From contig JAPLRS010000040.1 in assembly GCA_026399015.1 (NCBI GenBank), positions 124,001 to 188,000 on the forward strand: 64,000 nucleotides of DNA, read 5' to 3'. The notes under the pieces were generated by a model. It was not told where the DNA came from, ran no database searches, and was given only the letters and a program-made list of their open reading frames with translations. Positions 1 to 18,227 of the stretch are shown one piece after another. Positions within the stretch are counted from its first letter, which is position 1; each line of letters starts with the position of its first letter. The DNA is from Methylococcales bacterium (GTDB taxonomy: Bacteria; Pseudomonadota; Gammaproteobacteria; Methylococcales; Methylomonadaceae). The position numbers were made by a program, and so were the translations under genes.

Positions 1-486
1 ACAGAGGCGGTTGGCCAGTACCTCGAAGTGCGTCTTTTGTTTCTATGTTCCAACGGTGGCATTAGGAAAATACGCTAGTCATATTCCTAATACGTCTGGG
101 AATTACCCAGTCTTTTAGCCTTCTTTTTATATTCAAATTACCGAAATTGGTTTTACTTAAGGCGTATCCAATCATCATCCACAACACGAGGTGTGGGTAG
201 TCAGTAAAGTCGCTGCTTTTGCTCAGCTGTTACGCTCAATGCGAAGAACATTCCATTGCCAACGGCACCTATCAATCTACCGGTGCGAGTATTTCAAAAG
301 TGTTTGCCTAGGTTGTTGCCTGGTGTGCTTACTGGTTTTGAAAGGAACCAATCAACCTTCGCCTAATTCTTTCTTTATTACTTTTATTTAGCAAAGTTAT
401 ACAAAAGGGCCCAAAAAAGCCCCAAAAAAGCCGTTTTTTTACTGTTTTTTGTCTTACGAGCTAAATAAAGTAAAGGAGTTAAAGAG
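1..486. other. stretch without a confident gene
   Basis: I see no convincing gene here. The only long frame, from a GTG at 191, gives a cysteine- and arginine-rich peptide that does not look like a protein. Two small hairpins lie near the left edge: ATTAGGAA/TTCCTAAT with a loop of about 15 bases (around 63-91), and CTGGG/CCCAG followed by a T-rich run (around 97-120). They may end a gene lying to the left of the window. The last 70 bases contain homopolymer-rich sequence and then the ribosome binding site of the next gene. Confidence 0.4.
97..120 (+). terminator. possible weak rho-independent terminator
   Basis: A five-base-pair stem CTGGG/CCCAG with an AATTA loop is followed by TCTTTTAGCC and a further T run. 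It could terminate a transcript entering from the left edge. The stem is short, so this is a weak call. Confidence 0.25.
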
Positions 487-903
487 ATGCGAATAAACGA
501 ATTATTAAATGATGACCAACTCTACGAGATTTGGTGGTTAGTGAGTGATGCAATATGGGAAGCACTGGTTGATAAATACGTTGCCAATGATATAGACGAA
601 GGGTATGTCTATCGAAGACCATTTGCTCGAAGGAGGTATCCCATGCCCACTAGAAGTGGTCCAGCACGAAAGCTTAAGCGAAAGCCAGCGCCCAAAATGC
701 CTGTAAAACCATTCCCCATTCGACCAGAGCAAACGCCAGTGAATAAAACAAAAATTTCACCCAGTCAAACCAGTGGTCTTAATCCTAAGATTGATATTCA
801 AAACGGTCCAGACTTTAAACTTAAGGATCGATATGTCATGCCAGAACTTAGCGATAAAGACATTGAGATTGAAATGAAGAAAAAACCTAATGGTCGCCAC
901 TAA
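487..903 (+). CDS. hypothetical basic protein, island gene 1
   Basis: I do not recognise this 138-residue protein. Its start is well supported: AAAGGAG lies eight bases before the ATG. The first 40 residues are acidic to neutral and contain a Trp pair and a short helix (LYEIWWLVSDAIWEALVDKY). From about residue 43 the chain becomes rich in Arg, Lys and Pro (RRPFARRRYPMPTRSG, then a KPAPKMPVKPFPIRP stretch), which suggests a disordered, nucleic-acid- or partner-binding tail. The last 14 bases overlap the next gene, so the two are probably translated together. No signal peptide or membrane segment is visible. Phage or mobile-element origin is possible but unproven. Confidence 0.6.
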   Translation: MRINELLNDDQLYEIWWLVSDAIWEALVDKYVANDIDEGYVYRRPFARRRYPMPTRSGPARKLKRKPAPKMPVKPFPIRPEQTPVNKTKISPSQTSGLNPKIDIQNGPDFKLKDRYVMPELSDKDIEIEMKKKPNGRH

Positions 904-1243
904 TATTAAACAAGTTATCGAGGATGATGGCACTATTCGATTCTATTTGGGTGATTTACACCATAATCCAGAAGGGCCGGCTGTCATTGCTTATGATGGC
1001 TTACATAAAGAATATTGGTTTAAAGGCATGAGGCACCGAACAGATGGTCCTGCGGTTGAATATGCCGATGGTGATTACGAATATTTTCAGCAGGGCAGGC
1101 GACACAACTTACAGGGCCCTGCTAAGCGCATCGATGGAAAGTTAGAATATTGGATCAATGGTATTCAGTATACGACTGAAGATGAATACATTATGGTGCT
1201 TTTTGCGATGGGCTATGTGAATGGGAAGAAGTTTAGTAATTGA
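890..1243 (+). CDS. small protein with GPA/DG repeats (MORN-variant-like)
   Basis: This 117-residue protein contains three spaced copies of a pattern like HRxDGPAxxxxDGxxEYWxxG: around residues 25-45 (HHNPEGPAVIAYDG), 48-65 (HRTDGPAVEYADG) and 71-90 (HNLQGPAKRIDGK), each followed by an aromatic Tyr/Trp-rich strand and a Gly. Such repeats are known from phage proteins and from MORN/YwqK-like beta-repeat proteins, some of them antitoxins or adaptors, but no function can be assigned. The start overlaps the previous gene by 14 bases with no clear separate ribosome binding site, so coupling is likely. It may be one half of a two-gene module with that basic protein. Confidence 0.6.
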   Translation: MVATNIKQVIEDDGTIRFYLGDLHHNPEGPAVIAYDGLHKEYWFKGMRHRTDGPAVEYADGDYEYFQQGRRHNLQGPAKRIDGKLEYWINGIQYTTEDEYIMVLFAMGYVNGKKFSN

Positions 1244-1304
1244 GTCTATTATAAGATTTACTATTTATGATGTAAATGATGTTTGTTCAAGATTGTCCTG
1301 AAAT

Positions 1305-2310
1305 TTAATGTAGGTTATAATGTAATGAATATTTTACATATTTATTTGCATCAGCAGAAAAAGCCCGCCAGTCTTCGTCAGATAAACGGTTTGACAAATA
1401 GTGCGCTGCCATTAATGAAAATGCACCGCTAACTGATTGTAAATCTGTAATAAATTGATGAATTTCATCTGTTCGATTATCGCCATAGGATAAATAGATC
1501 GTATCTCTGTAATTAGCTTTGCCACGATAACGAAAAGCCTGGCTTAGAAAATTCACATGTGCTGGTTCCAATCTAGCCTCCCTTAAGCGCTTTGCTTTGC
1601 TAGAGCGGAAGTTCTCATATCCATATTTTTTATATTCGGAGCTTCCCTTAACACTTTCTTCAATGGGCCATTTTTCATATTCTGCTGTACCTTTAAGATA
1701 TGAGTATATTGAGCCAAAAGCCATTTCTTGATTTGACGGTGATGTATTTAGGTCATATTTTTTGCCATTTCGTAAAGCATCTACAGTCTTAGTAATATTT
1801 GATTGAGTTAAATTAGAGATACTAAAATCAAATGGAGTTTGTAGTAACATCCTACAAACAATATCTATTTGCCAGATTTTTGCTGTAGCTATGAGTTTGA
1901 GGGTTAGAACCACTTGAGGCTGCCAACATCGCTTTTGAAGCATAATATATAGTGTAATACCAAGCTATAATAGCTGATCTTACAATTGAATAAGGGTTAT
2001 CGATAATATCCATCTTATTAAGAGCATTTAAATTGTGCATTGACATAATAATGGATTCTAAAGCCAATGTATCTGAGGCTTTATTTTTTCGTCGTTTATT
2101 AACGTATTGGTAAAGATGGTGCAGATTATTATGAGAAAAATTGTTTTCACAAATAATGGCTAGACCTCGCATCCAGTTTACTGTTCCTTGAAATGCAAAT
2201 CGCGGAGTGGGTTGATTGTTATGCGCAAATAGTCTATTTAATAACCACATGATATCTTTAATTGTAATCTGATTAACTATAAACATTAGGGTTAAGGGAT
2301 TAGAGCACAA
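1305..2310 (-). pseudogene. frameshifted HEPN-like gene
   Basis: Two minus-strand reading frames overlap (2310-1852 and 1943-1305) and read as a single protein of about 335 residues if one base is dropped in an A5 run near 1873-1880: the text then passes from ...QTHSYSK to IWQIDIVCRMLL. The N-terminal part holds the helical segment SAIIAWYYTIYYASKAMLAA, which resembles the first helices of HEPN and nucleotidyltransferase-associated families common in defence and toxin loci. The C-terminal half (SFLSQAFRYRGKANYRD and later) is unrecognised. It may be a real pseudogene, a sequencing error in the homopolymer, or a gene using slippage. It is divergent from the TIR-like gene and may share its regulatory region. 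Confidence 0.5.
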
Positions 2311-2444
2311 TTTAGAGCAGAAGGTATAAAAAATTAGTAGTCATACGCATAAAAACAAGTAGTTTATAGTTATTGGTTATTAATGCAGCGAATTTCAAGA
2401 TTAAGATCCAAATCGGGGAACGTTATTTAAACAGGAGTTATAGG

Positions 2445-3227
2445 TTGAGTATTGAATTTTTAAAAACTGATTTTGATAAAGTAAGTTATCTTCTTAATTT
2501 GTTAACAGCAAGAGCAACAGGAATGACTGCTGATTCAAGAGAGTTTGAAGCTTTGCGCCATGAGTTGCTTAGCAATCCAAATTTATCTTCTTTCCTTCCT
2601 CAGTGGTTACTCCAACATAGGAATCTAGATACATTTTGGGGGTTCATTAAACTAAAGTTTAATACATACGCTGAGCGCCGTACTTTTTTGTCTGAGCAGT
2701 TTACACCCTTGCTAGATTTTCTAGAGTTTGGCCAACTTACACCTTCCACGCCTAGATTTAGGTCGGCTCAGGCTGTATCAAGAAATAAACGAAAAGTATT
2801 TATTGTTCATGGAAGAGATAACGAATTAAAACAAGAGGTTAGTCGATTTATTGAAAAAATTGGTTTAGAAGCAATTATATTACATGAGCAAGCCAGCGAA
2901 GGAATGACCATCATAGAGAAAATAGAACATTATTCTAATGACGCGGATTTTGCTCTAGTTTTATATACGGCTTGTGATCATGGCCGAGGCGTACATGAGT
3001 CTAATATTGCTCCCAAAAATAGAGCTCGCCAGAATGTAGTATTTGAGCATGGGTATTTTATGGCAAAGCTTGGGCGAGAAAATGTGTGTTCTTTGGTTAA
3101 AGGTGAAATAGAAAAACCAAATGATATAAGTGGCGTTGTTTATGTAACATTGGACGATTATGGTGCTTGGAAAATTGAGGTTGCTAAGGAGTTAAAATCT
3201 TGTGGCTATATAATCAAAAATTTTTAA
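2445..3227 (+). CDS. TIR-like nucleotide-binding protein (CAP12/Pycsar TIR type)
   Basis: The C-terminal part (about residues 117-255) is a TIR-like domain of the PF10137 type: KVFIVHGRDNELK opens the fold, the D-A-D-F-A-L-V-L-Y strand follows, and RARQNVVFEHGYFMAKLG carries the likely catalytic Glu in the FEHGYF motif. Family members bind or degrade NAD and often act as effectors in anti-phage systems. Residues 1-95 form a helical domain (FEALRHELLS, NTYAERRTFL) seen fused to such TIR-like domains. The frame is open from a TTG at 2373, but AGGAG seven bases before the TTG at 2445 makes that the better start (260 residues). No cyclase or other second-messenger gene lies next to it. Confidence 0.75.
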   Translation: MSIEFLKTDFDKVSYLLNLLTARATGMTADSREFEALRHELLSNPNLSSFLPQWLLQHRNLDTFWGFIKLKFNTYAERRTFLSEQFTPLLDFLEFGQLTPSTPRFRSAQAVSRNKRKVFIVHGRDNELKQEVSRFIEKIGLEAIILHEQASEGMTIIEKIEHYSNDADFALVLYTACDHGRGVHESNIAPKNRARQNVVFEHGYFMAKLGRENVCSLVKGEIEKPNDISGVVYVTLDDYGAWKIEVAKELKSCGYIIKNF

Positions 3228-3401
3228 TAATTTTTTCATTTATGAATGAGTTTAATATCTAAAATAGTGCGAGCATATACTGTTTAACAGGAGTAACAAA
3301 ACTGACGTCACCTATTTTTACACTCACTTCCAATCTTAATTAATCTAATAGGGGGTATATATGATAAAGTTTCATCAAAACCTTATCATTAAAATAATCA
3401 A

Positions 3402-3497
3402 ATGTGGAAATTACTAACATCTCCTTTTTTCATAACTTTAGGCTGTAAGTCTACTATTACTCAAGCAGAAATAATTTATCCACTATGCCAAATTTAA
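3402..3497 (+). CDS. possible small lipoprotein-like ORF in an otherwise empty gap
   Basis: The gap 3228-3530 has no large gene. One 31-codon frame could encode a peptide with a basic start (MWKLLTSPFF), a short hydrophobic stretch and an LGC-K boundary like a lipobox. It has no clear ribosome binding site and position -3 of the lipobox is Thr, which is atypical. It could equally be chance. The rest of the gap is AT-rich and presumably contains the promoter of the following membrane-protein gene. Confidence 0.18.
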   Translation: MWKLLTSPFFITLGCKSTITQAEIIYPLCQI

Positions 3498-3530
3498 TTT
3501 GTTATCCGAGTTCCAATTGAGGAATGAAAT

Positions 3531-4511
3531 ATGAAATGGAAGGAATTATTCTTCAGTGCTTTGCTATCGATGTTAGTAAGTGTGATAGGTGGTGTGGGAA
3601 CATATTATTTTACAAAGGATCCTGATCTCTCAAAAATCGAACAACTTAGTTATCAGCTTATAGCTGGTGGGGTCTTCAACGGGGGCGCATCAGAATTGGC
3701 CTTAAGTTCACTTAATGTGAAGAATATAGGGGGGGTCGCCGCTTCAAATGTAAAAGTTTTACTTACTTTTGAAAATTCAATTGTAAAAGATATATCTTTA
3801 GATTCAAGTGATGGCATAAAAGAGTTTAGCCGTGAACTTAAAGAAAAATCAGTGAAAATTGGATTTGATAAATTATTTCCCACTGAGAGTCTTACTATTA
3901 ATTTACTTCTCTCATCCCAAGAAACACCAAAGGTCTCAATACGAAGTGACGCTTCTATAGCCACCCAAAAAATATTTTATTCAAATAGTAAATCAAAATT
4001 AATAAATAATTTAAAATTAGTGATGTCAATTTATGGATTACTTTTATTTGTAACGCTTTTGGTGATGTTAAAAATATCACGCAGTTTAAATATTGGGTTT
4101 GGAAACTCAAAGAATAATACATGTTTTTTGTTAATGCATGCTGGCCTATTGGATCAAGCATTTAGAATTTTATCCTCCAAAATTGAAAGTGGTTGTTACG
4201 ATGCAATAACTTTATCAAATTTGGCTTTATGTAGTGCGCTTAAAGGTGATTCGGAAAATGCAGAACGTTATAAAGTTGCATCGTGTTATAAAAATCTTAA
4301 TACATATGAGAAAGCAATATATGATTTTAATGAATCTATTATTCTTATTTTTCAAGAAAAGATTGATGATGGTTTAGATAAATTGGAAAGGGCTATTAAT
4401 GCATCCCCCAAAGTCATTAAGAAATATTGTAAATATTCAGTACATTTTAATTCTTTAAAACATAATGAACGGTTTGCTAATATTATTAGTGAAGAAAAAA
4501 AAACCATCTAG
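3531..4511 (+). CDS. two-helix membrane protein with cytoplasmic repeat tail
   Basis: I do not recognise the family of this 326-residue protein. A transmembrane segment at about 7-27 (LFFSALLSMLVSVIGGVGTYYF) leads to a predicted extracytoplasmic, beta-rich region (about 30-150: LALSSLNVKNIGGVAASNVKVLLTF), like domains of ABC- or ion-channel-associated proteins. A second segment at about 160-180 (LVMSIYGLLLFVTLLVML) is followed by a cytoplasmic helical tail with TPR-like spacing (FLLMHAGLLDQAFRIL, AITLSNLALCSALKGDSENAERY). A GAGGA ribosome binding site supports the start. It lies 24 bases upstream of the methyltransferase operon on the same strand and could be co-transcribed with it, but nothing shows that it belongs to that system. 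Confidence 0.6.
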   Translation: MKWKELFFSALLSMLVSVIGGVGTYYFTKDPDLSKIEQLSYQLIAGGVFNGGASELALSSLNVKNIGGVAASNVKVLLTFENSIVKDISLDSSDGIKEFSRELKEKSVKIGFDKLFPTESLTINLLLSSQETPKVSIRSDASIATQKIFYSNSKSKLINNLKLVMSIYGLLLFVTLLVMLKISRSLNIGFGNSKNNTCFLLMHAGLLDQAFRILSSKIESGCYDAITLSNLALCSALKGDSENAERYKVASCYKNLNTYEKAIYDFNESIILIFQEKIDDGLDKLERAINASPKVIKKYCKYSVHFNSLKHNERFANIISEEKKTI

Positions 4512-4535
4512 GATGAATTTTAAACAACTCTATTT

Positions 4536-7220
4536 ATGAATGTAGAAGCATTAGAAAACAATCTCAAAACACTAGTATCTAGTCTCAATAAAGAGACATT
4601 TATATACGATTTGTTAATGGCTTATGAGTTGCCTAAGGCTTCTGTTACACGTTTACAAAAGGGTGATTACAATCTTTCTAAAGTTTCAGGTGAAATTTTA
4701 TGGAAGAAGAAGTTATTTTTCAAACAAGAAACTACAAATGATTTACATCAAAGTATTGATAATGTTAGTAATAATGCCACTATTGTTAAACAGCATCCTC
4801 GTTTTATTATAGTTACTGATTTTGAAATGCTGTTAGCCGTTGATACTAAAACTGCTGATAGCTTAGACATTTTATTAACAGATTTAAGTAAACATTATGA
4901 CTTCTTTTTACCCTGGGCAGGCTTAGAAAAGACCCAATTCCAAAGTGAGAATCCAGCCGATGTTAAAGCCGCAGAACGTATGGGGCGATTATATGACATT
5001 ATTTTAGAAGATAACCCTACCCAAGAAAAAGACCAGTTACACGCACTCAATATCTTTCTTTCACGATTATTATTTTGCTTCTTCGCTGAAGACACAGGAA
5101 TTTTTCAAGACAATCAATTTACCAATGCTATTGCCTCTCATACGGGAAAAGATGGCAGTGACCTTCAAGCTTATTTACAGAAGCTATTTGCTGTTCTTAA
5201 TGTCAGTGATAGAACGGACTATCCACAATTTCTACAAGACTTTCCTTATGTCAATGGTGGTTTGTTCGCTGATGATTATCCTTTGCCTTCTTTTACGGCA
5301 AAATCAAGAAAAATAATAATTGAATGTGGCGAGCTTAACTGGAAGTCAATTAATCCAGATATCTTTGGCTCCATGATTCAAGCTGTGGTGCATAACGACC
5401 AGCGCAGTAATCTTGGGATGCACTACACCTCAGTGACCAATATTATGAAAGTGATAGAGCCACTATTTCTTAATGAGTTGTATGAGGCCCTAGAAAATGC
5501 AGAAGAGGATGAGAAAAAGCTCAGTAAACTTTTAGGCAGACTTTATAACTTACGTATATTTGATCCAGCTTGTGGCTCCGGTAATTTTTTAATTATTGCC
5601 TACAAAGAGTTATGTAAATTAGAAATGGAGATATTCAGGCAATTACAGTCCATCAACAAAGCCTGGGAATCAAAAGAGTCTGGATTATGTATTACTCGTT
5701 CAGGACTTCAATTATCACAATTTTATGGCATTGAGATAGATGACTTTGCTCATGAAACAGCAAAGCTTTCACTATGGTTAACAGAGCATCAAATGAATTT
5801 GGTCTTTAAGGATGTCTTTGGAGAAACACGTCCTACGCTGCCATTGCAAGATGCTGGTAATATTTTTTGTGGTAATGCCACTCGGCTGAATTGGGAGCTG
5901 GTTTGCCCGAAATTGGATTTAAAAGGGAATCCTTATGAGATTTATATTCTCGGTAATCCACCATATTTAGGTGCGCGAATTCAGGATAAACAGCAGAAAT
6001 CCGACGTAAAAAGTGTTCTTGGACATATCAATGGGTTTAATAATCTCGATTATATTTCTTGTTGGTTCTTAAAGGCATCTGAATATATTAGGAAGACGAG
6101 TAATGAATTTGCTTTTGTATCGACAAATTCAATAAGTCAGGGAATATCTGTGGCTATGCTTTGGCCTTCAATTTTAGTGGATAATGAAATTAGCTTTGCA
6201 CATCAGTCATTTAAATGGACAAATAATGCAAAAGGGAATGCTGGTGTAATATGCGTAGTTATTGGAATACGATCTAGGTCAACAAAATGCAAGTATATTT
6301 TTAGAGAATCGAGACAATTAAAAGTATCTCATATAAATGCTTATTTATTTAATGCGGGAGATATTTATATACAGAATCGAAGAACTCCAATCTCATCTAT
6401 ACCTTATATTAATTATGGCAGTTTTGCATTAGATGACGGTAATTTAACAATATCTAAAAGTGAAAGGGAGTTAATCCTAAAAGAAGATTTTAGCACAAGA
6501 AGTTTTTTATATGACTTTATTGGTGCGAAGGAGTTAATTCAAGGTGGTGAGAGGTATTGTCTCTGGATTGACGATGTCGAAGTCAAAGAAGTCATGAAGA
6601 TAGCAATTTTACGTAATAAAATTGAGAGAGTGGGAGAATGGAGGCAAAATAGTGATAGGGAGGCGACCAAGAAATTATCTAACGTTCCACATCGTTTTGC
6701 AGAGATTAGACAGCCAACTTCTTCGTATCTTGCATTTCCAACGGTTTCGTCAGAAAGAAGAGAATATATTCCAATAGCTTTTCTTGAACCTAATATTATT
6801 GCATCAAATCAAATATATATTATTGCGAATCCTGATCCATATATTTTTGCTGTTATATCTTCGCATATGCATATGACTTGGGTGCGAACAGTTGCGGGGC
6901 GATTGAAATCAGATTATCGTTATTCATCATCCCTCTGTTATAACACATTTCCGTTTCCAAATATTAATGATGAACAAAAAAGTATATTAGAACAGCATGT
7001 TTTTAAAGTCCTGGATGAGCGTGAACAGCATTCTGAAAAGACTATGGCGCAGCTTTATGACCCCGATAAAATGCCTGCAGGTTTACGAAAAGCACATCAT
7101 GAAATGGATTTGGCCATAGAGCAATGTTACCGTCCACAGCCATTTAAATCAGATGAAGAGCGCTTAGAATATTTATTTAAGTTGTATGAAACTATGATTG
7201 CAGCTGAGGATAACGATTAA
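4536..7220 (+). CDS. class I DNA methyltransferase of a three-gene restriction-type system
   Basis: This 894-residue protein is an N6-adenine-type DNA methyltransferase of the large MmeI-like group. The SAM-binding motif DPACGSGNF is at about 346 and the catalytic motif IV NPPY at about 474; a helical spacer (LNIFLSRLLFCFFAEDTGIF, FPYVNGGLFADD) typical of the group precedes them, and the C-terminal 350 residues probably hold the target recognition domain. In bifunctional MmeI-like enzymes an N-terminal PD-ExK nuclease comes first. Here the first 80 residues (FIYDLLMAYELPKASVTRL, GEILWKKKLFFK) show no such motif, so this subunit probably only methylates and recognises DNA. The stop codon overlaps the helicase start (TAATG), so these genes form one operon. 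Confidence 0.85.
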   Translation: MNVEALENNLKTLVSSLNKETFIYDLLMAYELPKASVTRLQKGDYNLSKVSGEILWKKKLFFKQETTNDLHQSIDNVSNNATIVKQHPRFIIVTDFEMLLAVDTKTADSLDILLTDLSKHYDFFLPWAGLEKTQFQSENPADVKAAERMGRLYDIILEDNPTQEKDQLHALNIFLSRLLFCFFAEDTGIFQDNQFTNAIASHTGKDGSDLQAYLQKLFAVLNVSDRTDYPQFLQDFPYVNGGLFADDYPLPSFTAKSRKIIIECGELNWKSINPDIFGSMIQAVVHNDQRSNLGMHYTSVTNIMKVIEPLFLNELYEALENAEEDEKKLSKLLGRLYNLRIFDPACGSGNFLIIAYKELCKLEMEIFRQLQSINKAWESKESGLCITRSGLQLSQFYGIEIDDFAHETAKLSLWLTEHQMNLVFKDVFGETRPTLPLQDAGNIFCGNATRLNWELVCPKLDLKGNPYEIYILGNPPYLGARIQDKQQKSDVKSVLGHINGFNNLDYISCWFLKASEYIRKTSNEFAFVSTNSISQGISVAMLWPSILVDNEISFAHQSFKWTNNAKGNAGVICVVIGIRSRSTKCKYIFRESRQLKVSHINAYLFNAGDIYIQNRRTPISSIPYINYGSFALDDGNLTISKSERELILKEDFSTRSFLYDFIGAKELIQGGERYCLWIDDVEVKEVMKIAILRNKIERVGEWRQNSDREATKKLSNVPHRFAEIRQPTSSYLAFPTVSSERREYIPIAFLEPNIIASNQIYIIANPDPYIFAVISSHMHMTWVRTVAGRLKSDYRYSSSLCYNTFPFPNINDEQKSILEQHVFKVLDEREQHSEKTMAQLYDPDKMPAGLRKAHHEMDLAIEQCYRPQPFKSDEERLEYLFKLYETMIAAEDND

Positions 7221-9160
7221 TGCCAAATCTTGTTGATGTAACCTATGCGCAAACGGGTCAAAGCACCTCAACTAATAATATGGGTATGCGTGAGATGCAA
7301 GCTTGTGCATATGCGGAGCGAAATGCCCAGTACCTTTTATTAAAAGCGCCGCCTGCTTCTGGTAAGTCTCGAGCTTTAATGTTTTTAGGCTTAGATAAGC
7401 TCTATAATCAAGGACTAAAAAAAGTTATTGTGGCGGTTCCAGAAAGATCGATTGGTGCATCATTTGATTGCACGAACCTGACTGATCAAGGGTTCTTTGC
7501 GGATTGGGATTTTAATAATGATTATAATCTTTGCACGCCTGGAGGCGAGAAAAGCAAGGTTGGGGCATTTAAAAGCTTCTTAGATAATACAAATGAAACT
7601 ATTTTGGTTTGCACACACGCAACACTACGATTTGCTTTTGATGCAGTAGATGAATCTGTATTTAATAATACCCTTTTAGCGATTGATGAGTTTCACCATG
7701 TTTCAGCAGATGATAATAATCGCTTAGGGGAAGTGCTTCGCTCCGTTATAAAAAATACCAGTGCGCATATTGTAGCAATGACCGGTTCTTATTTTCGTGG
7801 TGATAGTGTACCGGTCTTGCTACCTGAGGATGAGGCACGTTTTACTAAAGTGACCTATAATTATTATCAGCAGCTTAATGGTTATACTTATCTAAAAACA
7901 CTGGGTATCGGTTATCACTTTTATCAAGGTCGCTATTTAAGTGCGATTGATGAAGTATTAAATACTGATAAAAAAACTATTCTTCATATCCCCAATGTTA
8001 ATGCCAGTGAATCAACTAAATTAAAGCATGATGAAGTTGATTCTATTTTAGATAGTATCGGTAGGGTAGTTCATCAAGACCCTCAAACAGGTGTTATTAC
8101 CGTTGAGCGCAAGCTTGATGGTAAGTTGATTAAAGTAGCTGATTTAGTCAATGATAACCAGATAGACCGAGATAAAATTGTTGCTTATCTGCGGCAGATT
8201 AGTTCGGTTGATGATATGGACCTTATCATTGCATTAGGGATGGCTAAAGAAGGTTTTGACTGGCCTTTTTGTGAGCATGCCCTTACTGTAGGGTATCGCG
8301 GATCACTCACTGAAATTATTCAAATTATTGGACGAGCTACACGAGATAGCTCAAATAAAACCCACGCCCAATTTACTAATTTAATTGCTCAACCTGATGC
8401 CGCGGACGACCAAATAAAGCTTTCAGTAAATAATATGCTTAAGGCTATTACGGTTTCTTTATTAATGGAGCAAGTATTAGCCCCTAATTTTAAATTTAAG
8501 ACCAAAAATTTTGATGACGAAGACGAGGAAACTGACGTTATTAAAATACGTGGATTCAAAGAACCTAGTTCTAAACGGGTTAAAGATATTGTTGAATCTG
8601 ATCTTAATGATTTAAAAGCAGCAATTTTACAAGACCCAAAGATTTTACAAGCTTTACCTGGTGAGTTTATTGATCCTGAAGTCATTAATAAAGTGATGAT
8701 TCCAAAGATAATACAAACTAAATATCCAGATTTGAATCCTGAAGAAATAGAAGAAATTAGGCAACATGTGGTTGTTGATTCGGTCATTAAGAACGGTGAA
8801 ATTAAAGAGGTAGGTAACAATCGCTTTGTGCGTATGGCGGGTAAATTTGTCAATATAGAAGATTTACATATTGATTTAATTGATCAGGTTAATCCATTTC
8901 AAAAAGCGTTTGAAGTATTGTCTAAATCTGTGACAGCAAAATTATTAAAAGTTATCCAAGAGACTATCGATGCAGGACGCATTAAGATGACTGATGAAGA
9001 GGCAGTTATCTTGTACAGAGATAAGATTAGCGTTTTTGTAAAAACCCATTCAAGAGAGCCGAATATTAACTCTACTGACCCTTTAGAAAGGCGAATGGCA
9101 GAAGCAATAATTTATTTAAAAAATAAAAAGCGCCAGCAGGCTTCTGGAAGTAGCCTGTGA
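7220..9160 (+). CDS. DEAD/DEAH-type superfamily 2 helicase/translocase subunit
   Basis: This 646-residue protein is an SF2 ATPase. Walker A is PPASGKS at 44-50, the Walker B/DExH equivalent is IDEFHH at about 154-159, a motif III-like AMTGSYFRGD follows, and a motif VI-like QIIGRATR lies at 368-375, so both RecA lobes are present. Walker B reads DEFH, a DExH-box form. The C-terminal 200 residues are a family-specific tail ending in an FVKTHSREP...PLERRMAEAI motif that also appears near the N-terminus of the next protein. The gene starts inside the methyltransferase stop and its own stop overlaps the next start (GTGA). It is the likely translocating subunit of a methyltransferase-helicase-nuclease complex. 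Confidence 0.85.
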   Translation: MPNLVDVTYAQTGQSTSTNNMGMREMQACAYAERNAQYLLLKAPPASGKSRALMFLGLDKLYNQGLKKVIVAVPERSIGASFDCTNLTDQGFFADWDFNNDYNLCTPGGEKSKVGAFKSFLDNTNETILVCTHATLRFAFDAVDESVFNNTLLAIDEFHHVSADDNNRLGEVLRSVIKNTSAHIVAMTGSYFRGDSVPVLLPEDEARFTKVTYNYYQQLNGYTYLKTLGIGYHFYQGRYLSAIDEVLNTDKKTILHIPNVNASESTKLKHDEVDSILDSIGRVVHQDPQTGVITVERKLDGKLIKVADLVNDNQIDRDKIVAYLRQISSVDDMDLIIALGMAKEGFDWPFCEHALTVGYRGSLTEIIQIIGRATRDSSNKTHAQFTNLIAQPDAADDQIKLSVNNMLKAITVSLLMEQVLAPNFKFKTKNFDDEDEETDVIKIRGFKEPSSKRVKDIVESDLNDLKAAILQDPKILQALPGEFIDPEVINKVMIPKIIQTKYPDLNPEEIEEIRQHVVVDSVIKNGEIKEVGNNRFVRMAGKFVNIEDLHIDLIDQVNPFQKAFEVLSKSVTAKLLKVIQETIDAGRIKMTDEEAVILYRDKISVFVKTHSREPNINSTDPLERRMAEAIIYLKNKKRQQASGSSL

Positions 9161-10371
9161 TTGATTTTGAAAAGGAATTAGCCGTTATTTTAGCGGATGA
9201 TCCTTTGGGTTTGTTAGTGATAAAGCCAAAGGCCTCATCTGGCATGAATATGGATGAGCGATTGTTATCTTCTTTTGAGGAGATTAATACTTTTATAAAT
9301 GAGCAAGGTCATGAGCCCCAAGCAAGTCAAGATATCAATGAACGTAAGCTTTATAGTCGCTTAAAAGGCTTGCGTGAAAACCCAGAAAAAGTGGCTGCAT
9401 TAATTCAGTGTGATAGTTTTGATTTGTTTGCTACTGAGAAAATGCCAGTTGTTAAAGAGATTAATACGATTGCTGATGTTCTCGAAGATGATTTCCTAGG
9501 CTTATTAGGTAGTAATGCAAAGGATGAAGAAGATCCTACTGATATTTTTAAGCTTAGACACGTCACCAAAACGATAGATATGCCTGAGCAAATTGCACGT
9601 AGGGTTCCGTGTAAAAATTTTGATAAGTATGAACAACTTTTCAAGCAGTGTCATAGGGATCTTGTTTCTGGAGCTAGTGTCTTTAAGCCATTTACAGGAG
9701 AGCAACAAATAACAGCAGGACATTTCTTTATTTTGCACGGTGTTATGGTTTACGTTGCTGATGTCGGTGAGAAGGAAAAAAAACGCGGTAAAGTTAATGC
9801 CAGATTACTGTGTATCTTTGAGAATGGTACAGAATCTAATATGTTGTTGCGTTCTTTAGCAACTGAACTTTATAAGGATGAAAATGGTGTACGTGTTCTT
9901 CCTTTAAGCGAAGATTTACTTATGCCGGATGAGCATATAACACATGAAGATCAATCGACGGGTTATATCTATATATTACAGTCATTGACTGAAGATAATA
10001 ATATCAGGGATATTGCTGATTTATATAAAATTGGTTATTCGAGCCAACCAGTTAAAGAACGCATTAAGAATGCGTCGCAAGAACCAACCTATTTAATGGC
10101 AGATGTTAAATTACTTAGTGAGTTTCAAACATTTAACTTAAATCCCCAAAAGCTGGAGTTATTACTGCATACATTTTTTGCAGAGGCTTGTTTAAATATT
10201 GATGTATTTGATAAAGAAGGTAAGCGCTATACTCCAAGAGAATGGTTTATTGTGCCGTTGCAAGTTATAGAAATAGCTGTAAGGCTATTGATCAATGGTG
10301 AAATCATTAACTATCGTTATGATAATAATAAACGAGAGATTATTGAGAAAGTTGGTAGTTTCGGTGAATAA
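9157..10371 (+). CDS. GIY-YIG (T5orf172/MUG113-type) nuclease
   Basis: This 404-residue protein carries a GIY-YIG fold of the T5orf172 type: GYIYIL at about 269-274, LYKIGYSS at 289-296 and KERIKNAS with the conserved Arg at about 302, followed by LELLLHTFF in the position of the catalytic Glu helix, then YTPREWF. That fold is the likely DNA-cutting activity of the operon. The N-terminal 60 residues carry INEQGHEP...INERKLYSRLKGL, similar to the C-terminal end of the helicase, and may be a shared docking module. A GTG start inside the helicase stop, preceded by GGAAG, is used. The residues around 165-260 are unassigned. Confidence 0.82.
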   Translation: MIDFEKELAVILADDPLGLLVIKPKASSGMNMDERLLSSFEEINTFINEQGHEPQASQDINERKLYSRLKGLRENPEKVAALIQCDSFDLFATEKMPVVKEINTIADVLEDDFLGLLGSNAKDEEDPTDIFKLRHVTKTIDMPEQIARRVPCKNFDKYEQLFKQCHRDLVSGASVFKPFTGEQQITAGHFFILHGVMVYVADVGEKEKKRGKVNARLLCIFENGTESNMLLRSLATELYKDENGVRVLPLSEDLLMPDEHITHEDQSTGYIYILQSLTEDNNIRDIADLYKIGYSSQPVKERIKNASQEPTYLMADVKLLSEFQTFNLNPQKLELLLHTFFAEACLNIDVFDKEGKRYTPREWFIVPLQVIEIAVRLLINGEIINYRYDNNKREIIEKVGSFGE

Positions 10372-10562: not shown

Positions 10563-11009
10563 CTATTTTCCAGCAATTTTTGCCGCCTCTTCAATTCTGT
10601 TAGCTAGTTTTTCGTAATCAATGTACTTGTAAACGTTGAAACCGCTATCCATCAACAGTTTTGGAGTTTTACCAGGTTCATCTACATTCTGGTTTTTATC
10701 TTTTAAATGATGGATTTGTATGCCAACAACACCATTGCCACGTTCAATAGACTTTTCAATCTCGTATTTTATGTATTTTCTGTTTGCAGTTTGATTACCG
10801 ATAAAAACAACAGTAACACTTGTATTATAAAGGGCATCATCAATCAATTTTTTGATAGCCGCATCACTTTTCCTTTTGGCTTCCTCCCAAAGAGATGCAT
10901 CTTGAAACCCAGCAGCTGCGGAGCCCAATATATTTGGGATGCTTCTGATTTGATTGATACGCCAAATATCCCTCTGATAGTGAAAGCTGAAAAATACACG
11001 TCTAGCCAT
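10563..11009 (-). CDS. ThsB-like TIR-domain protein (MTH538/DUF1863 type)
   Basis: This 148-residue protein is a stand-alone TIR-like domain. It opens with RRVFFSFHYQRDIWRINQIR, the hallmark start of the MTH538 TIR-like family (PF08937) to which Thoeris ThsB belongs, continues with SVTVVFIGNQTANRKYIKYE (a central strand and the helix with the conserved Tyr/Glu) and GVVGIQIHHLKD. ThsB proteins sense phage and make a cyclic-ADP-ribose-type signal for a partner effector. No SIR2-SLOG or macro-SLOG ThsA gene lies next to it; instead it starts at the stop codon of a small membrane protein (TAATG on the minus strand), so the two are translationally coupled. The likely model is TIR sensor plus membrane effector, but this is inference. 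Confidence 0.82.
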   Translation of the reverse strand: MARRVFFSFHYQRDIWRINQIRSIPNILGSAAAGFQDASLWEEAKRKSDAAIKKLIDDALYNTSVTVVFIGNQTANRKYIKYEIEKSIERGNGVVGIQIHHLKDKNQNVDEPGKTPKLLMDSGFNVYKYIDYEKLANRIEEAAKIAGK

Positions 11010-11422
11010 TATTTATTTCCTATTGTTTCCACGATTAACATGATGATAATAATTGTGCCTAGTACACTTCCATGAAATATACTCAGGGTTAAAGAAAAAC
11101 ACGTTGATTGCCATGAATCAACTTCGTTTTCGAACATGGTAGCGTTCATAGAAAAATCAATTTCTCTGGGCTGTTTCTTTGAAACTGATTGATAGAGTTT
11201 GCGATAAAGCCTTTCTTGATGAAGAAAATAACCATCAAGAAACCAGAAAGATACACATGGAAAATATGCCAAATAAATAAAGAATGGATTTGAATCTTTT
11301 GCGGCAAGAGCAAAAAGGGCTGATGTCAGAGTGACACTCCAGCCTTTGAGTAAAAATGAATTTCCAGCTAATCGATTTATTACATATTGAATCATCTCAA
11401 GATGTTTTAATTTAGATTCCAT
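11009..11422 (-). CDS. small membrane protein coupled to the TIR gene
   Basis: This 137-residue protein has an N-terminal amphipathic helix (LKHLEMIQYVINRLAGNSF), two close hydrophobic segments at about 23-43 (FLLKGWSVTLTSALFALAA) and 47-64 (FFIYLAYFPCVSFWFLDGY), a cytoplasmic loop (about 66-108) and a third segment at about 113-133. This layout resembles small membrane effectors of nucleotide-signalling systems. The start is well placed after GAGGT. It is the first gene of a two-gene minus-strand operon with the ThsB-like gene, so it is the probable effector, for instance a pore that opens on a signal. No catalytic motif is visible. Confidence 0.7.
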   Translation of the reverse strand: MESKLKHLEMIQYVINRLAGNSFLLKGWSVTLTSALFALAAKDSNPFFIYLAYFPCVSFWFLDGYFLHQERLYRKLYQSVSKKQPREIDFSMNATMFENEVDSWQSTCFSLTLSIFHGSVLGTIIIIMLIVETIGNK

Positions 11423-11744: not shown

Positions 11745-12674
11745 TCATTTAGGTATATGCCAAGCGTTAGGGAAGGCTAATTTCATTCCTTGGATAATAG
11801 CTTGGTCATTATTCCAGACCACAATAGCAGAAGGAAAAGGGGCCACTTCACCACCTTCGCCGCCGAATTTCAAACGACCTTTAAGCATAAAAACATCGGC
11901 TTTATTTACTATCCAAGAATGCCAAGCTAAGGTATCAGGTCTGGCAGGAATTAAAGCAATACATACAGTTACTCTGCCGCTTAAAAACTCATCATGGCAT
12001 TTCTTAATCCACATTTTTTGTGTCCTGCCGTAAGGTGGGTTAACAAATACGCTGCCAAACCAAGGTGTTAGTAAACCATCATCATTGGTTTCGCCGGTAT
12101 GATAAACCTTGGCCTTTACTGGTGCCTTTCTTCTGTCTTTAGTCGGGCTACAAGGGTCTAAATCGAATAGGCCACCTACTATTGGATATAGTTTATCTAA
12201 TAATTCGGGTGGGGTAGTCCATGCTTGATAGTTGCTGCTTGTTGCAGCGGTATTAAAGAATGATAGTGGCTTGTCATTATGGTTTAGAAATAAACCAGCG
12301 CCCAAAGTTGCAGCAATACGTTCAACAGAATAAAGGGTGGTTGATTGGTCCGCTTCAACTGAAATAATGGTGGGTACGCTAATGCAGGTGAGTGTCGATA
12401 GCTCTCTTAGTGGTATTTTTTGTCGTTGTCTTAGTATAGCGAGGCTTTCACCCAGTGAATTACCTTTAGGCAGACTTCTTCCGGCGATATCGTGTTCAAG
12501 TAAATGCGCCATTGAGGTAAAACTCGATAATAACCCGGCGCCTTTTTCGGATTTGATAACGGTAAGGACAGATAAGCCGGTCTGAGCCGAAACATTATAT
12601 TGTTTAAGCCCAGATGCTTTTCTTATCTTTTTAAGCTCGAAACCTAGTGTAGAAAATATGCGATTCTTTAACAA
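11745..12674 (-). CDS. HTH-Dam fusion: phage-type adenine methyltransferase with N-terminal Cro/CI-type domains
   Basis: The first half of this 309-residue protein has two helix-turn-helix modules of the Cro/CI type: about 8-60 (ELKKIRKASGLKQYNVSAQ, SVLTVIKSEKG) and about 73-125 (ESLAILRQRQKIPLRELS, VPTIISVEAD). The second half (about 145-309) matches the phage DNA N6-adenine methyltransferase family (PF05869): WTTPPELLDKLYPIVGGLFDLDPC holds the cofactor-site DxDPC and FVNPPYGR is motif IV. DNA binding at a chosen operator and methylation may therefore be combined. The frame opens at a TTG with no good ribosome binding site, so the true start is uncertain. It lies between the recombinase remnant and the intact recombinase gene, which suggests it came in as part of a mobile unit. 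Confidence 0.78.
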   Translation of the reverse strand: MLKNRIFSTLGFELKKIRKASGLKQYNVSAQTGLSVLTVIKSEKGAGLLSSFTSMAHLLEHDIAGRSLPKGNSLGESLAILRQRQKIPLRELSTLTCISVPTIISVEADQSTTLYSVERIAATLGAGLFLNHNDKPLSFFNTAATSSNYQAWTTPPELLDKLYPIVGGLFDLDPCSPTKDRRKAPVKAKVYHTGETNDDGLLTPWFGSVFVNPPYGRTQKMWIKKCHDEFLSGRVTVCIALIPARPDTLAWHSWIVNKADVFMLKGRLKFGGEGGEVAPFPSAIVVWNNDQAIIQGMKLAFPNAWHIPK

Positions 12675-12737: not shown

Positions 12738-13292
12738 TTAAACTTCAACTTCCTTCAATAAGCTATAAACAGTCTGTCGCGTAACATTAAAGTGCCTGGC
12801 AATATCAATTTTTAACGCGCCACCATTAAACATAGCAAAAGCCATTTCTTTAGCTTTGTCATCTAAGGCATCAGGGCGCCCAAATTTCTTACCGCGTTTT
12901 TTTGCCGCCTCTAAACCTGCTTTAACACGTTCACGGATTAAACCACGTTCGAATTCTGCCAGTGAGCCGAAAATATGGAATATCAATTTACCAGTAGGTG
13001 AGGTGGTATCAATATTTTCAGTAATTGATTGGAAGCCTATCTTGCGTTCTTCAAGGTCATTCACCACATCAATCAAATGTTGCAGACTTCGGCCTAGTCG
13101 ATCGAGTTTCCAAACGATTAAAACATCATCTTCACGCAATGACTTTAGACATTGCTGTAATTCAGGTCGGTCTTTTTTAGCACCCGATTGTTTCTCTTGA
13201 TAGATAAGCTCACAACCAATGGCTTTAAGGGCATCAATTTGTAAGTGGGTATCTTGTTCGTTTGTTGAGACCCTTGCATAGCCAACTTTCAT
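12738..13292 (-). CDS. serine recombinase (resolvase/invertase family)
   Basis: This 184-residue protein has the full resolvase fold. The catalytic Ser is residue 9 in GYARVSTNEQ, the arginine pair lies in VWKLDRLGRSLQHL (about 66-79), ENIDTTSPTGKLIFHIFGSLAEFERGLIRER forms the long E helix, and the C-terminal HTH is IARHFNVTRQTVYSLLK. Length and motifs are those of Tn3-type resolvases and Pin-type invertases. No transposase of a Tn3 element is next to it, so it may serve a small mobile unit or a plasmid-derived region. It could act at sites in the AT-rich 13300-13500 region, which is inference. Confidence 0.9.
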   Translation of the reverse strand: MKVGYARVSTNEQDTHLQIDALKAIGCELIYQEKQSGAKKDRPELQQCLKSLREDDVLIVWKLDRLGRSLQHLIDVVNDLEERKIGFQSITENIDTTSPTGKLIFHIFGSLAEFERGLIRERVKAGLEAAKKRGKKFGRPDALDDKAKEMAFAMFNGGALKIDIARHFNVTRQTVYSLLKEVEV

Positions 13293-13476: not shown

Positions 13477-13513
13477 GTTAAAATATAAGCACTGTAAATA
13501 AAGGTTGAATCAC

Positions 13514-14023
13514 ATGAAGAAAAGAATAATTGCTATTCAAGCCAACATCACAACACTAGAAGTTGATGTTATTGTAAATGCTGCCAATGAAAGCCTATTA
13601 GGGGGAGGGGGAGTTGATGGCGCAATTCATCGAGCTGCGGGCCCTGATTTATTAGATGAGTGTGAAAAATTAAATGGCTGCGATATCGGTGATGCGAAAA
13701 TTACTGCTGGTTATGATTTGCCCGCCAAATACGTAATTCATACTGTTGGCCCTACCTGGGATGGTGGAGAGTGTGGCGAGCCATTGTTACTTAAGAGTTG
13801 TTATGAGAAGCCATTAGATTTGATGCTGCAATATAAATGCAAAACTATAGCGTTCCCATCTATCAGTACAGGTGTATATGGCTATCCAATTGAAGAAGCC
13901 GCTTCAATTGCTGTTGCTACTGTAATTGCAAGACTAAGAGGCACTCATGAAATAGAGCAAGTTATCTTTTGCTGCTTTTCTGATTACGATCTGGATATTT
14001 ACAATGAAATATTGAATGAGTGA
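13514..14023 (+). CDS. macrodomain protein, MacroD/YmdB type ADP-ribosyl hydrolase
   Basis: This protein of about 169 residues is almost entirely one macrodomain. [20 protein letters not shown] at 17-36 holds the ADP-ribose-binding Asn and the Gly-rich loop, [10 protein letters not shown] follows, then [17 protein letters not shown], and [14 protein letters not shown] forms the second loop. MacroD enzymes remove acetyl from O-acetyl-ADP-ribose or ADP-ribose from proteins. The ATG at 13514 is preferred over the TTG three codons earlier because AAAGG lies nine bases before it. It stands alone, 2 kb from the TIR gene, so a role in processing TIR products is possible but unsupported. A chromosomal housekeeping role is the alternative. 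Confidence 0.88.
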
Positions 14024-15970: not shown

Positions 15971-16708
15971 CTATTTTTTTATGCTTTGTTTCTTTCGATA
16001 ACTCTCTCCGTTTAATTCAATAATAGTGGCATGATGGATAATGCGATCAATCGCAGCGACTGTCATCATCGTGTCTGGGAATATCTGATCCCATTGGCTA
16101 AAGGGTTGGTTAGACGTGATAATAAGGCTTGCACTTTCATATCTGTGAGCAATAAATTCAAACAATACTTGAGTTTCCGCATCAGTCTTTTTTACATATC
16201 CCATATCATCAATGATTAATACCTGATACTTATCTAGACGGGCCATGATGTTCTTTAAGTTTAAGTCACGTTTAGCTTGTTGTAATAGTTGTACTAACGT
16301 CATTGCAGTAAACCATTTCACACGTATTTTCTTTTCGACTAATTGGTATGCAAGGGCGGCGGCAATGTGTGATTTACCAACCCCTGAAGGACCGATTAAT
16401 AAGATATTCTCCGCTCGACGAGCCCAGTCTATGTCATCTTTGAGTGCGATTATCTGCTGCTGTAATGCTTCACAGTATTCGGTTAAGTGTAACTTGGTAA
16501 AGCTTTTGCCAGGCGGTAATCCCGCTTCTCGATTCCATTGTTGAACTCGCTTTTGGTACCTATCGGCCATTTCTTGCTCACAAAGACCTGACAAGTAGCG
16601 AATATGCCCATAGCCTTTTTCAATCGCTTGTAATTGATGGCTTTGATAATTCACCTTGAATGAAGGTAATTTCAATTCTTTTAATAAAAGAGCAATCGTT
16701 TCAGGCAT
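15971..16708 (-). CDS. istB: IS21-family helper ATPase IstB
   Basis: This 245-residue protein is the AAA+ partner of the IS21 transposase and directs target choice. Walker A is LIGPSGVGKSHIAAAL at about 103-118, Walker B is VLIIDDMGY, and ITSNQPFSQWDQIF with DRIIHHATIIEL gives the sensor region of DnaC/IstB proteins. Length is normal for the family. Its start overlaps the end of istA by eight bases, as usual for IS21, so translation is coupled. The gene appears intact. Confidence 0.95.
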   Translation of the reverse strand: MPETIALLLKELKLPSFKVNYQSHQLQAIEKGYGHIRYLSGLCEQEMADRYQKRVQQWNREAGLPPGKSFTKLHLTEYCEALQQQIIALKDDIDWARRAENILLIGPSGVGKSHIAAALAYQLVEKKIRVKWFTAMTLVQLLQQAKRDLNLKNIMARLDKYQVLIIDDMGYVKKTDAETQVLFEFIAHRYESASLIITSNQPFSQWDQIFPDTMMTVAAIDRIIHHATIIELNGESYRKKQSIKK

Positions 16709-18227
16709 GACACCCCCCAGTGCGATACCAATGACCTTTTAAGAGATGGTCATAACTCATTAGGTCATGCTGTCGAGCTTGAATTTGGGGGACTGCTTGA
16801 TGACCTAGATAGCGCTCTTGTAATACCTTTAAGGGAGGTAGTAATTTATTTTCATCAAGTAAAGCCAATAACTCATTGCCTAACGGTTCCTCACAATCAT
16901 GATCTGAGGCAATGCGAAGCACTGCCACCATCCATTTACAAGCCTCTTGTGTTTGAAATTGTTGATCACAAACTGACCATAATTTGCGATAAACGTCCGT
17001 GGGTAATAGGTCTTCTCGAAATTGTAAGAAACGAAACGCCTGAGGTTTACTGGATAAACTATGAATTAGGTGGCGATAATTAATAGAGCGAGCTCGATCA
17101 TTACCGGGTTTCGGATAAACACGGGGTAGTGTAATCGTTAGCGTTTGACCCACATAAACAGCTAAGCGATCATGGTAAATATGCACCCGAACAGTTTCAC
17201 CAATCATTTTTGCGGGCACGGTATATAAGACTCTTTTGATTTCTAAAGTACTACTACGCGTTACTTTTAAACTGACCTCGCTGTAATCCATAAAGCGTTC
17301 TTTAGGTAAAGGTTGTAACTGGCGTTGTTCTTCTTTAAATCGACTTAAACATCGTTTATTCAAGCGCTCCGTGATGGTATTTAAAAAGCACTGATATTCT
17401 TTAACTGTTTCAAAGTCATAACTACCGCGTAATTTTAAAGCTTGATCGAGGCGTCGTTTAAATGAACCATGTGCACATTCAATAGCCCCATTTTCATGAC
17501 TTACACCGCGATTATTGCGTGTTGCTCTTACGTTATAGTGAGCACAGAGTGCTTGATAAGACGCCGTTAGTTTTTGTTCTTCTACTCGATTAATAAAAGC
17601 AGCACTGAGACTATCGGTACGATGCTCAATCGGGCATCCTCCCGCCAATTGAAAGGCCGATTGTAATCCGTCCGCTAACGCAGAATAACTTTCACCACCC
17701 AGCGTCACTTGTACATATCGCCAACCACTATAGGCCAAACGATACTGGTATAAAAGATGATTAAACATTTTGCCGTGTATCGTTATTACGGAATTGGGAT
17801 GACTGAAGTCAGATAGACCCTGTTGACCCGCAGGGACCGATTGTCGAAATATGACCGGCTTATCGGGTCCTTGTGTCGCTTTCCAATGTTTAACTCGTCT
17901 TTGTAGGGTGCGCAATAGAGTATAAGAAAACTGACCTGGATATTTATCTTCTAGATATTCCCAAAGCGTTAATCCGGTTAACTCCGGCTCACTTTCTAAC
18001 AAAGGCGCTAATTCTTTTTCCCAAATAGATGTAAAAGGATCTTCTCGGGTACGCCAGTGACGATTAACTGATGCTAATTGACGTTCAGTCTTTTCAATTC
18101 TACGACCTGATCGTTCAGAAATCCCTGCTTTTGCAGCAGCTGTTTCTTGGCTTTTGCCTGACTTACGTGCGCTCATATATAAAGTCTCTTGATGTTGAGT
18201 AATACGTTTTCCAGACAAGGCAGGCAC
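16701..18227 (-). CDS. istA: IS21-family transposase IstA
   Basis: This 508-residue DDE transposase has an N-terminal HTH (SQETAAAKAGISERSGRRIE), a retroviral-integrase-like core (about 115-290: SDFSHPNSVITIHGKMFNHL with the first Asp, HRTDSLSAAFINR with the second, and NRGVSHENGAIECAHGSFKR with the catalytic Glu) and a C-terminal beta domain with YTVPAKMIGETVRVHIYHD. Length is in the family's range and no frameshift is seen, so the element may still be active. The frame opens at an ATG at 18227, close to the right end of the element. Confidence 0.95.
   Translation of the reverse strand: MPALSGKRITQHQETLYMSARKSGKSQETAAAKAGISERSGRRIEKTERQLASVNRHWRTREDPFTSIWEKELAPLLESEPELTGLTLWEYLEDKYPGQFSYTLLRTLQRRVKHWKATQGPDKPVIFRQSVPAGQQGLSDFSHPNSVITIHGKMFNHLLYQYRLAYSGWRYVQVTLGGESYSALADGLQSAFQLAGGCPIEHRTDSLSAAFINRVEEQKLTASYQALCAHYNVRATRNNRGVSHENGAIECAHGSFKRRLDQALKLRGSYDFETVKEYQCFLNTITERLNKRCLSRFKEEQRQLQPLPKERFMDYSEVSLKVTRSSTLEIKRVLYTVPAKMIGETVRVHIYHDRLAVYVGQTLTITLPRVYPKPGNDRARSINYRHLIHSLSSKPQAFRFLQFREDLLPTDVYRKLWSVCDQQFQTQEACKWMVAVLRIASDHDCEEPLGNELLALLDENKLLPPLKVLQERYLGHQAVPQIQARQHDLMSYDHLLKGHWYRTGGCHA

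Follow-up and report, generated by a model that had tools for sequence, protein, structure and literature searches.

The stretch of DNA analyzed here (64,000 nucleotides, positions 124,001 to 188,000 of the forward strand of contig JAPLRS010000040.1, from the Methylococcales bacterium assembly GCA_026399015.1; hereafter the window) carries an operon of three genes, which encode a DNA adenine methyltransferase of the MmeI family, a superfamily 2 (SF2) ATPase that we call the motor, and a nuclease of the GIY-YIG type (Table 1). The source genome amounts to 2.70 Mb at 86% completeness, and the host is probably a methanotroph. An initial annotation, made from the letters of the DNA, had the three genes overlapping by 1 to 4 bases at TAATG and GTGA, and so they do: at the first junction the methyltransferase stop codon occupies 7218-7220 and the motor begins with the ATG from 7220, an overlap of 1 base, and at the second the nuclease begins with the GTG from 9157 and the TGA stop of the motor ends at 9160, an overlap of 4 bases. 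All three open reading frames (ORFs) are open in the window, and by its sequence this copy of what we will argue is a DnmA-YeeB-YeeC operon looks intact.

Table 1. The operon genes and the domains within them discussed in the text, in window coordinates
Feature	Position	Strand	Basis
DnmA/YeeA-type DNA adenine methyltransferase, MmeI family, 894 aa	4536..7220	+	ORF list, Pfam
YeeB-type superfamily 2 ATPase/translocase, 646 aa, Walker B = DEFH, C-terminal part helical	7220..9160	+	
YeeC-type GIY-YIG (T5orf172/MUG113) nuclease, 404 aa, GTG start	9157..10371	+	Pfam; model pLDDT (predicted local distance difference test) 85
Target recognition domain (TRD) of the methyltransferase, residues 608-810, the part exchanged	6357..6965	+	blastn, domain identities
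Module at the C-terminus of the motor (residues ~603-641), common to the nuclease N-terminus	9026..9142	+	hhalign
Helical module at the N-terminus of the nuclease (residues ~43-80), relative of the motor C-terminal module	9283..9396	+	hhalign, model

The methyltransferase has its Pfam domains in the order of MmeI (MmeI_N, residues 1-158; MmeI_hel, 169-244; MmeI_Mtase, 319-589, 7.4e-104; and, in the C-terminal half, MmeI_TRD, 608-810, 1.4e-73, and MmeI_C, 811-887), and it aligns to the solved structure of MmeI (5hr4) with 617.6 bits. The DPACGSGNF and NPPY motifs named in the initial annotation are both present in its translation. The same annotation saw no PD-ExK nuclease at the N-terminus, and the alignment to MmeI agrees: residues D70, E80 and K82 of that enzyme, which we take to be the catalytic residues and to form the endonuclease motif D-X9-E-X-K, align to E53, K63 and E65 of the window protein. 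Among 72 aligned rows (71 relatives and the window), 68 are readable at the nuclease columns, and none of the 68 has E-x-K there; the column of position 63 holds K or R in 62 of them, and that of position 65 holds K in none. Because the motif is absent throughout the readable rows, its loss belongs to the family as a whole and did not arise by decay at this locus. PADLOC labels the protein REase_MTase_IIG (1016.8 bits) even though it has no nuclease motif, with further matches to DrmMI (3e-45) and PglX (6.3e-6); where a type IIG label is given to a protein that has no nuclease residues, surveys may miscount the set.

Loss of the motif goes together with possession of the partner genes. In a sample of 397 genomes of the window's phylum, the methyltransferase profile marked 47 places, 30 of which were retrieved with their flanks (besides the window locus itself, 16 places were left out as fragments or as weaker matches), and the N-terminus is readable in 28 of the 30. 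Eight of the 28 keep the D/E/K residues, and none of the eight has a motor or a nuclease in its stretch, two of them (L143 and L151) being cut by the contig end about 0.1 and 1 kb past the gene. The other 20 do not have the three residues; the motor is present in all 20 and the nuclease in 18, the remaining two (L135 and L136) being cut inside the motor. Both partners are also present at L132 and L153, whose N-termini are unreadable. On a tree of 41 rows, built with the N-terminus and the TRD removed, the eight D/E/K rows form one side of one branch (support 100/100), and by this evidence motif loss and partner linkage trace to a single old event, kept since.

As for the partners, the motor carries a P-loop (APPASGKS) and, as the initial annotation had it, the QIIGRATR motif, but its Walker B box reads DEFH and not the DEAH proposed there. 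The third residue of this box is phenylalanine in all 45 aligned sequences, in which all 15 motif positions are invariant. Pfam matches are weak (DEAD, ResIII and Helicase_C, of which DEAD alone passes the Pfam cut-off). No Pfam match points to a fused C-terminal PD-ExK domain, and in the model the C-terminus is mostly helical, residues 520-576 falling below a pLDDT of 50. The third protein proved to be the T5orf172-type GIY-YIG nuclease that had been predicted (T5orf172, 1.5e-11; MUG113, 3.8e-13), with the GIY-YIG domain at its C-terminus. Of eight positions checked, seven (G269, Y272, K291, G293, R302, E334 and H338) do not vary among 49 sequences, and the eighth, 290, is occupied by Y (33 sequences), H (9) or F (7). 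Motor and nuclease also have a small helical module in common: hhalign pairs the C-terminus of the one with the N-terminus of the other at 84.3% (E 7.2e-6), as against at most 0.9% in four control comparisons. At L002, L006, L013, L055 and L069 the nuclease is divided between a short N-terminal ORF and a second one with the GIY-YIG part, a division that also appears in existing annotation as two genes.

Linkage of the three genes is strict. A scan with the motor profile gave at least 549 confirmed relatives, and linkage was counted in the best 80 of these; a nuclease was scored when it lay on the same strand no more than 800 bp past the end of the motor, in loci with at least 900 bp downstream, and a methyltransferase when it lay upstream on the same strand, in loci with at least 3500 bp on that side. 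The nuclease follows the motor in 77 of 77 loci with room, and the methyltransferase precedes it in 63 of 63, so that the homologous triplets sought by the initial annotation do exist elsewhere with their order kept; at L045, which has no room upstream, the methyltransferase is located after the nuclease. Pairwise distances were compared across 86 loci in which all three proteins exceed the score cut-offs, a number in which one record, L008/L155, probably figures twice. The correlation is 0.899 for motor and methyltransferase, 0.868 for motor and nuclease, and 0.879 for methyltransferase and nuclease, and for each pair 0 of 300 permutations reach the observed value; by these distances the three proteins are co-inherited. 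The gene set is very widespread: by record title, the best 80 loci include Pseudomonadota, Bacteroidota, Bacillota, Planctomycetes, Campylobacterota, bacteria of the candidate phyla radiation (CPR) and one archaeal metagenome-assembled genome, and among plasmids 263 of 72,556 records hold a motor relative.

Some natural copies are incomplete or split. On the Acinetobacter baumannii plasmid pABTJ1 (L006), a shortened motor ORF and the split nuclease directly follow an ISAba1 transposase, and the methyltransferase was not found in the stretch, which makes this an incomplete copy. Elsewhere the methyltransferase (L008/L155) or the motor (L156) is divided into two ORFs, which may be real or an assembly error.

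One part of the methyltransferase that differs sharply between close relatives is the TRD. Compared by blastn with L155, a same-genus contig that by length and hits is one record with L008, the window matches at 93.7% over 1-6269 and at 84.4% over 6936-10360, with no match over 6269-6936, and this gap falls on the TRD. Domain by domain, in the order N-terminal, spacer, methyltransferase, TRD and C-terminal, the window is 85, 93, 75, 43 and 94% identical to L154 of the same genus and 75, 87, 69, 39 and 82% identical to L156 of the same family; against L155, where only the longer of the two methyltransferase ORFs was compared, the first four values are 97, 96, 75 and, over 78 residues, 37%. At 37-43% identity in the TRD versus 69-97% in the other domains, the TRD is exchanged between these close relatives. 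In the contact code given in the cited part of PMC4833311, K806-D808 go with G at position 6 and E-R with C, a bulky residue at 774 goes with G at position 4 and K774 with S810 accompanies C there, and Arg or Lys at 723 goes with C at position 1. At the contact positions the window has R at 723, T751, N773, Q774, K806, D808 and R810, from which its target is predicted to be 5'-CNNG(mA)G, mA being the methylated adenine. With E-R at 806/808 in L154, and K774 together with S810 in L156, these near relations are predicted to recognize different sites. Exchange of this kind suits an active enzyme of self/non-self discrimination better than it does a fixed regulator.

By protein types and gene order, the operon belongs with dnmA(yeeA)-yeeB-yeeC of Bacillus subtilis: in both, an MmeI-type methyltransferase that has no endonuclease motif is followed by an SF2 helicase and then by a T5orf172/GIY-YIG protein. 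The B. subtilis genome, used as a control, matches the MmeI_TRD and T5orf172 families. The two differ in target, predicted as CNNGAG for the window versus GACGAG in B. subtilis, and in the siting of the window operon in a TIR-rich defense island. The passages cited from PMC7261158 show that DnmA makes N6-methyladenine (m6A) at GACG(mA)G; they also relate that earlier work (reference 49 there) placed DnmA in a group of MmeI homologues without the endonuclease motif that have yeeB/yeeC-like genes at their flanks, and proposed a ‘Type I-like’ system. Morgan et al. are credited with the earlier observation of the gene set in PMC9973331, where a survey of 368 neighborhoods found yeeB- and yeeC-like families to be the commonest defense-type neighbors of dnmA, in the first and second places downstream. 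The same paper tells of a preprint (its reference 35, Piel et al.) in which deletions of the dnmA and yeeB homologues of Vibrio crassostreae reportedly raised sensitivity to some phages. The set has therefore already been described, and in this respect the initial annotation, which held it to be a candidate little-described system and knew of no experimentally defined one, went too far: a match to a characterized system, which it had set against its own reading, is in part present. What is new here is the TRD exchange with its predicted target, the cargo site described below, and the common module.

We consider it likely that the window operon, of the YeeABC type, encodes an ATP-driven restriction-modification system resembling types I and III, with the nuclease on a chain of its own, and judge that the initial annotation was right to read a motor and a separate nuclease linked to the methyltransferase as a restriction or defense operon. 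In such a system the methyltransferase would recognize an asymmetric site of ~6 bp and methylate one adenine on one strand of the host DNA; at an unmodified site it would instead recruit or license YeeB, which would move along the DNA using ATP, and the GIY-YIG nuclease YeeC, held in a complex with the motor, perhaps via the common small module, would then cut. Since replication always leaves one daughter duplex unmethylated, a single bare site should not be enough for cutting, which may call for, say, two sites in inverse orientation, as with type III enzymes. Methylation of a single strand is what protects the host in the MmeI subgroup, according to the cited part of PMC7261158. The set would thus probably destroy foreign DNA that does not bear the chemical mark of the host, a kind of system that is biochemically unproven.

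Several points weigh against this reading. The linkage counts come from the nearest relatives of the query motor and are biased towards these; the association of motif loss with linkage is one old split on the tree and not a set of independent events; and the motor occurs in only 5 of 61 genomes of relatives, its own genome included. The nuclease and motor models are of single chains, not of a complex, with modest predicted template modeling scores (pTM 0.43 and 0.59). The main doubt comes from B. subtilis, whose operon, the only one tested directly in the papers cited, is inactive: in the passages cited it does not restrict plasmid uptake (PMC7261158), single deletions left sensitivity to three phages unchanged and phages do not avoid the DnmA motif (both PMC9973331), and the authors term the operon a relic. 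Widespread as the set is, the cited passages of PMC7261158 and PMC9973331 report no cleavage and neither ATPase activity for YeeB nor nuclease activity for YeeC, so the nuclease step is unproven there. The window copy, which looks intact and has a predicted target, would be a good test case for phage restriction by the three-protein set.

The same B. subtilis results could mean, as was concluded for that organism, that the methyltransferase is a functional orphan serving gene regulation and that YeeB and YeeC are relics. Loss of dnmA methylation lowers reporter expression from some promoters (PMC7261158, PMC9973331, in the parts cited), which together with the missing restriction and phage phenotypes speaks for regulation. 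This reading is nevertheless unlikely, given that all three window ORFs are open with the checked catalytic residues kept, that invariance over 45-49 diverse sequences and co-inheritance are unlike relics, and that TRD exchange would scramble a regulatory methylome.

Alternatively, the methyltransferase could mark self while YeeB and YeeC block phage replication, or only nick DNA, in a non-cleaving exclusion like that of BREX. BREX and DISARM contain gene sets of methyltransferase and ATPase, and the DrmMI and PglX matches given above are a likeness of the window methyltransferase to both. We think this improbable: the nuclease is invariant at seven of the eight positions checked and adjacent to the motor wherever there is room, and PADLOC lists no PglZ, BrxC, DrmA or DrmB for the 10 proteins scanned (the three of the operon and seven neighbors; for the methyltransferase, among the best 25 of 30 matches). 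That YeeB and YeeC attack phage DNA on a cue of damage, structure or modification and without site recognition by the methyltransferase, which would only protect the host, is unlikely, for although the methyltransferase is separated from the motor by 300 bp or more in 33 of 69 loci and lies after the nuclease at L045, and the DnmA motif is not under-represented in phage genomes, the methyltransferase is upstream in every locus with room and co-inherited (0.88-0.90), and the viability of the B. subtilis dnmA deletion speaks against a free-standing nuclease there.

Returning to the ATP-driven restriction-modification reading, a further feature of the set is the space between methyltransferase and motor. 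Their ORFs overlap or lie no more than 47 bp apart in 33 of 63 loci, and in the other 30 a space of 463 bp or more holds further ORFs; a gap of at least 300 bp is seen in the 33 of 69 loci just mentioned, which were counted with no limit on room, and in 9 of 22 of the phylum sample. The window operon has no cargo between its genes. From 44 loci we collected 88 cargo ORFs, of which 69 were scanned; the 19 set aside by hand came mostly (17) from L135 and L136. The scanned ORFs include RhuM (12), Schlafen AlbA_2 (12), HATPase_c_4 (10), Fic (5) and AAA_13 (2), and the AAA_13 cargo of L041 matches PrrC too, at 7.5e-19. RhuM itself occurs in 54 of 199 genomes and, in part of its loci, adjoins type I genes: among 53 of 78 flanking ORFs scanned from 30 loci there were matches to ResIII (6), SWI2_SNF2 (5), N6_Mtase (3), HSDR_N (3) and Methylase_S (3), tallies in which one ORF can match several families and that are not set against a background rate. 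PrrC is a known guard of a type I enzyme and is found in a type IC locus (PMC12707154, in the part cited); by analogy, we infer that the cargo genes may guard the operon.

With MmeI (Type IIL) the operon shares the N-terminal, helical spacer, methyltransferase, TRD and C-terminal domains, and it differs in having no PD-ExK residues, in supplying the motor and the GIY-YIG nuclease in trans, and in falling on the other side of the tree. It is like Type I in that modification and motor genes are separate and that RhuM and AAA_13/PrrC-like genes lie in or beside both; in contrast to Type I, its recognition domain is fused to the methyltransferase, its GIY-YIG nuclease is on its own chain and not fused to the motor, and no Pfam match to an HsdS-type subunit (Methylase_S) or an HsdR nuclease domain (HSDR_N) was found in the three operon proteins. 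Type III (Mod-Res) systems likewise have an SF2 motor and would share the expected one-strand m6A at an asymmetric site, but Res is a motor fused to PD-ExK, whereas the window operon has its GIY-YIG nuclease on a separate chain and an MmeI-type methyltransferase.

We tentatively propose, as a possibility somewhat short of an even chance, that these operons form a distinct ATP-driven restriction class, founded by a degenerate type IIL enzyme that, having lost its own nuclease, acquired a separate motor and a GIY-YIG nuclease linked by a duplicated small helical module. Exchange of the TRD would change the specificity, and the space separating methyltransferase and motor would dock genes (RhuM, Schlafen-AlbA_2, Fic, PrrC-like) that act as guards by sensing inhibition of the system, much as PrrC guards a type I enzyme.

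The island in which the window operon lies, identified from Pfam and PADLOC matches of the neighbors, also holds mobile-element genes. Upstream, on the + strand, 2373-3227 encodes a TIR-domain protein of the CAP12/Pycsar-effector kind (Pfam 3.5e-40; PADLOC PDC-S35), and 3531-4511 a protein with weak TPR matches that ends 25 bp before the methyltransferase; a homologue of the latter, 96.6% identical, is found among the loci compared only in the same-genus contig L008/L155. Downstream, a ThsB-like TIR gene at 10563-11422 (-) is paired with a PDC-M50A gene as a candidate defense pair, and in its region, between 10360 and about 11520, contig L155 has no match to the window. A single 309-residue ORF at 11745-12674 (-) combines a helix-turn-helix region with a Dam-like, phage-type adenine methyltransferase. 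Marks of mobility beside the island are a serine resolvase at 12738-13292 (-), a macro-domain protein at 13505-14023 (+) and an IS21-type transposase/IstB pair at 15971-18227 (-); a PADLOC match to DrmD at 15971-16708 (3.5e-38) was rejected, as it falls on the IstB ATPase of IS21.

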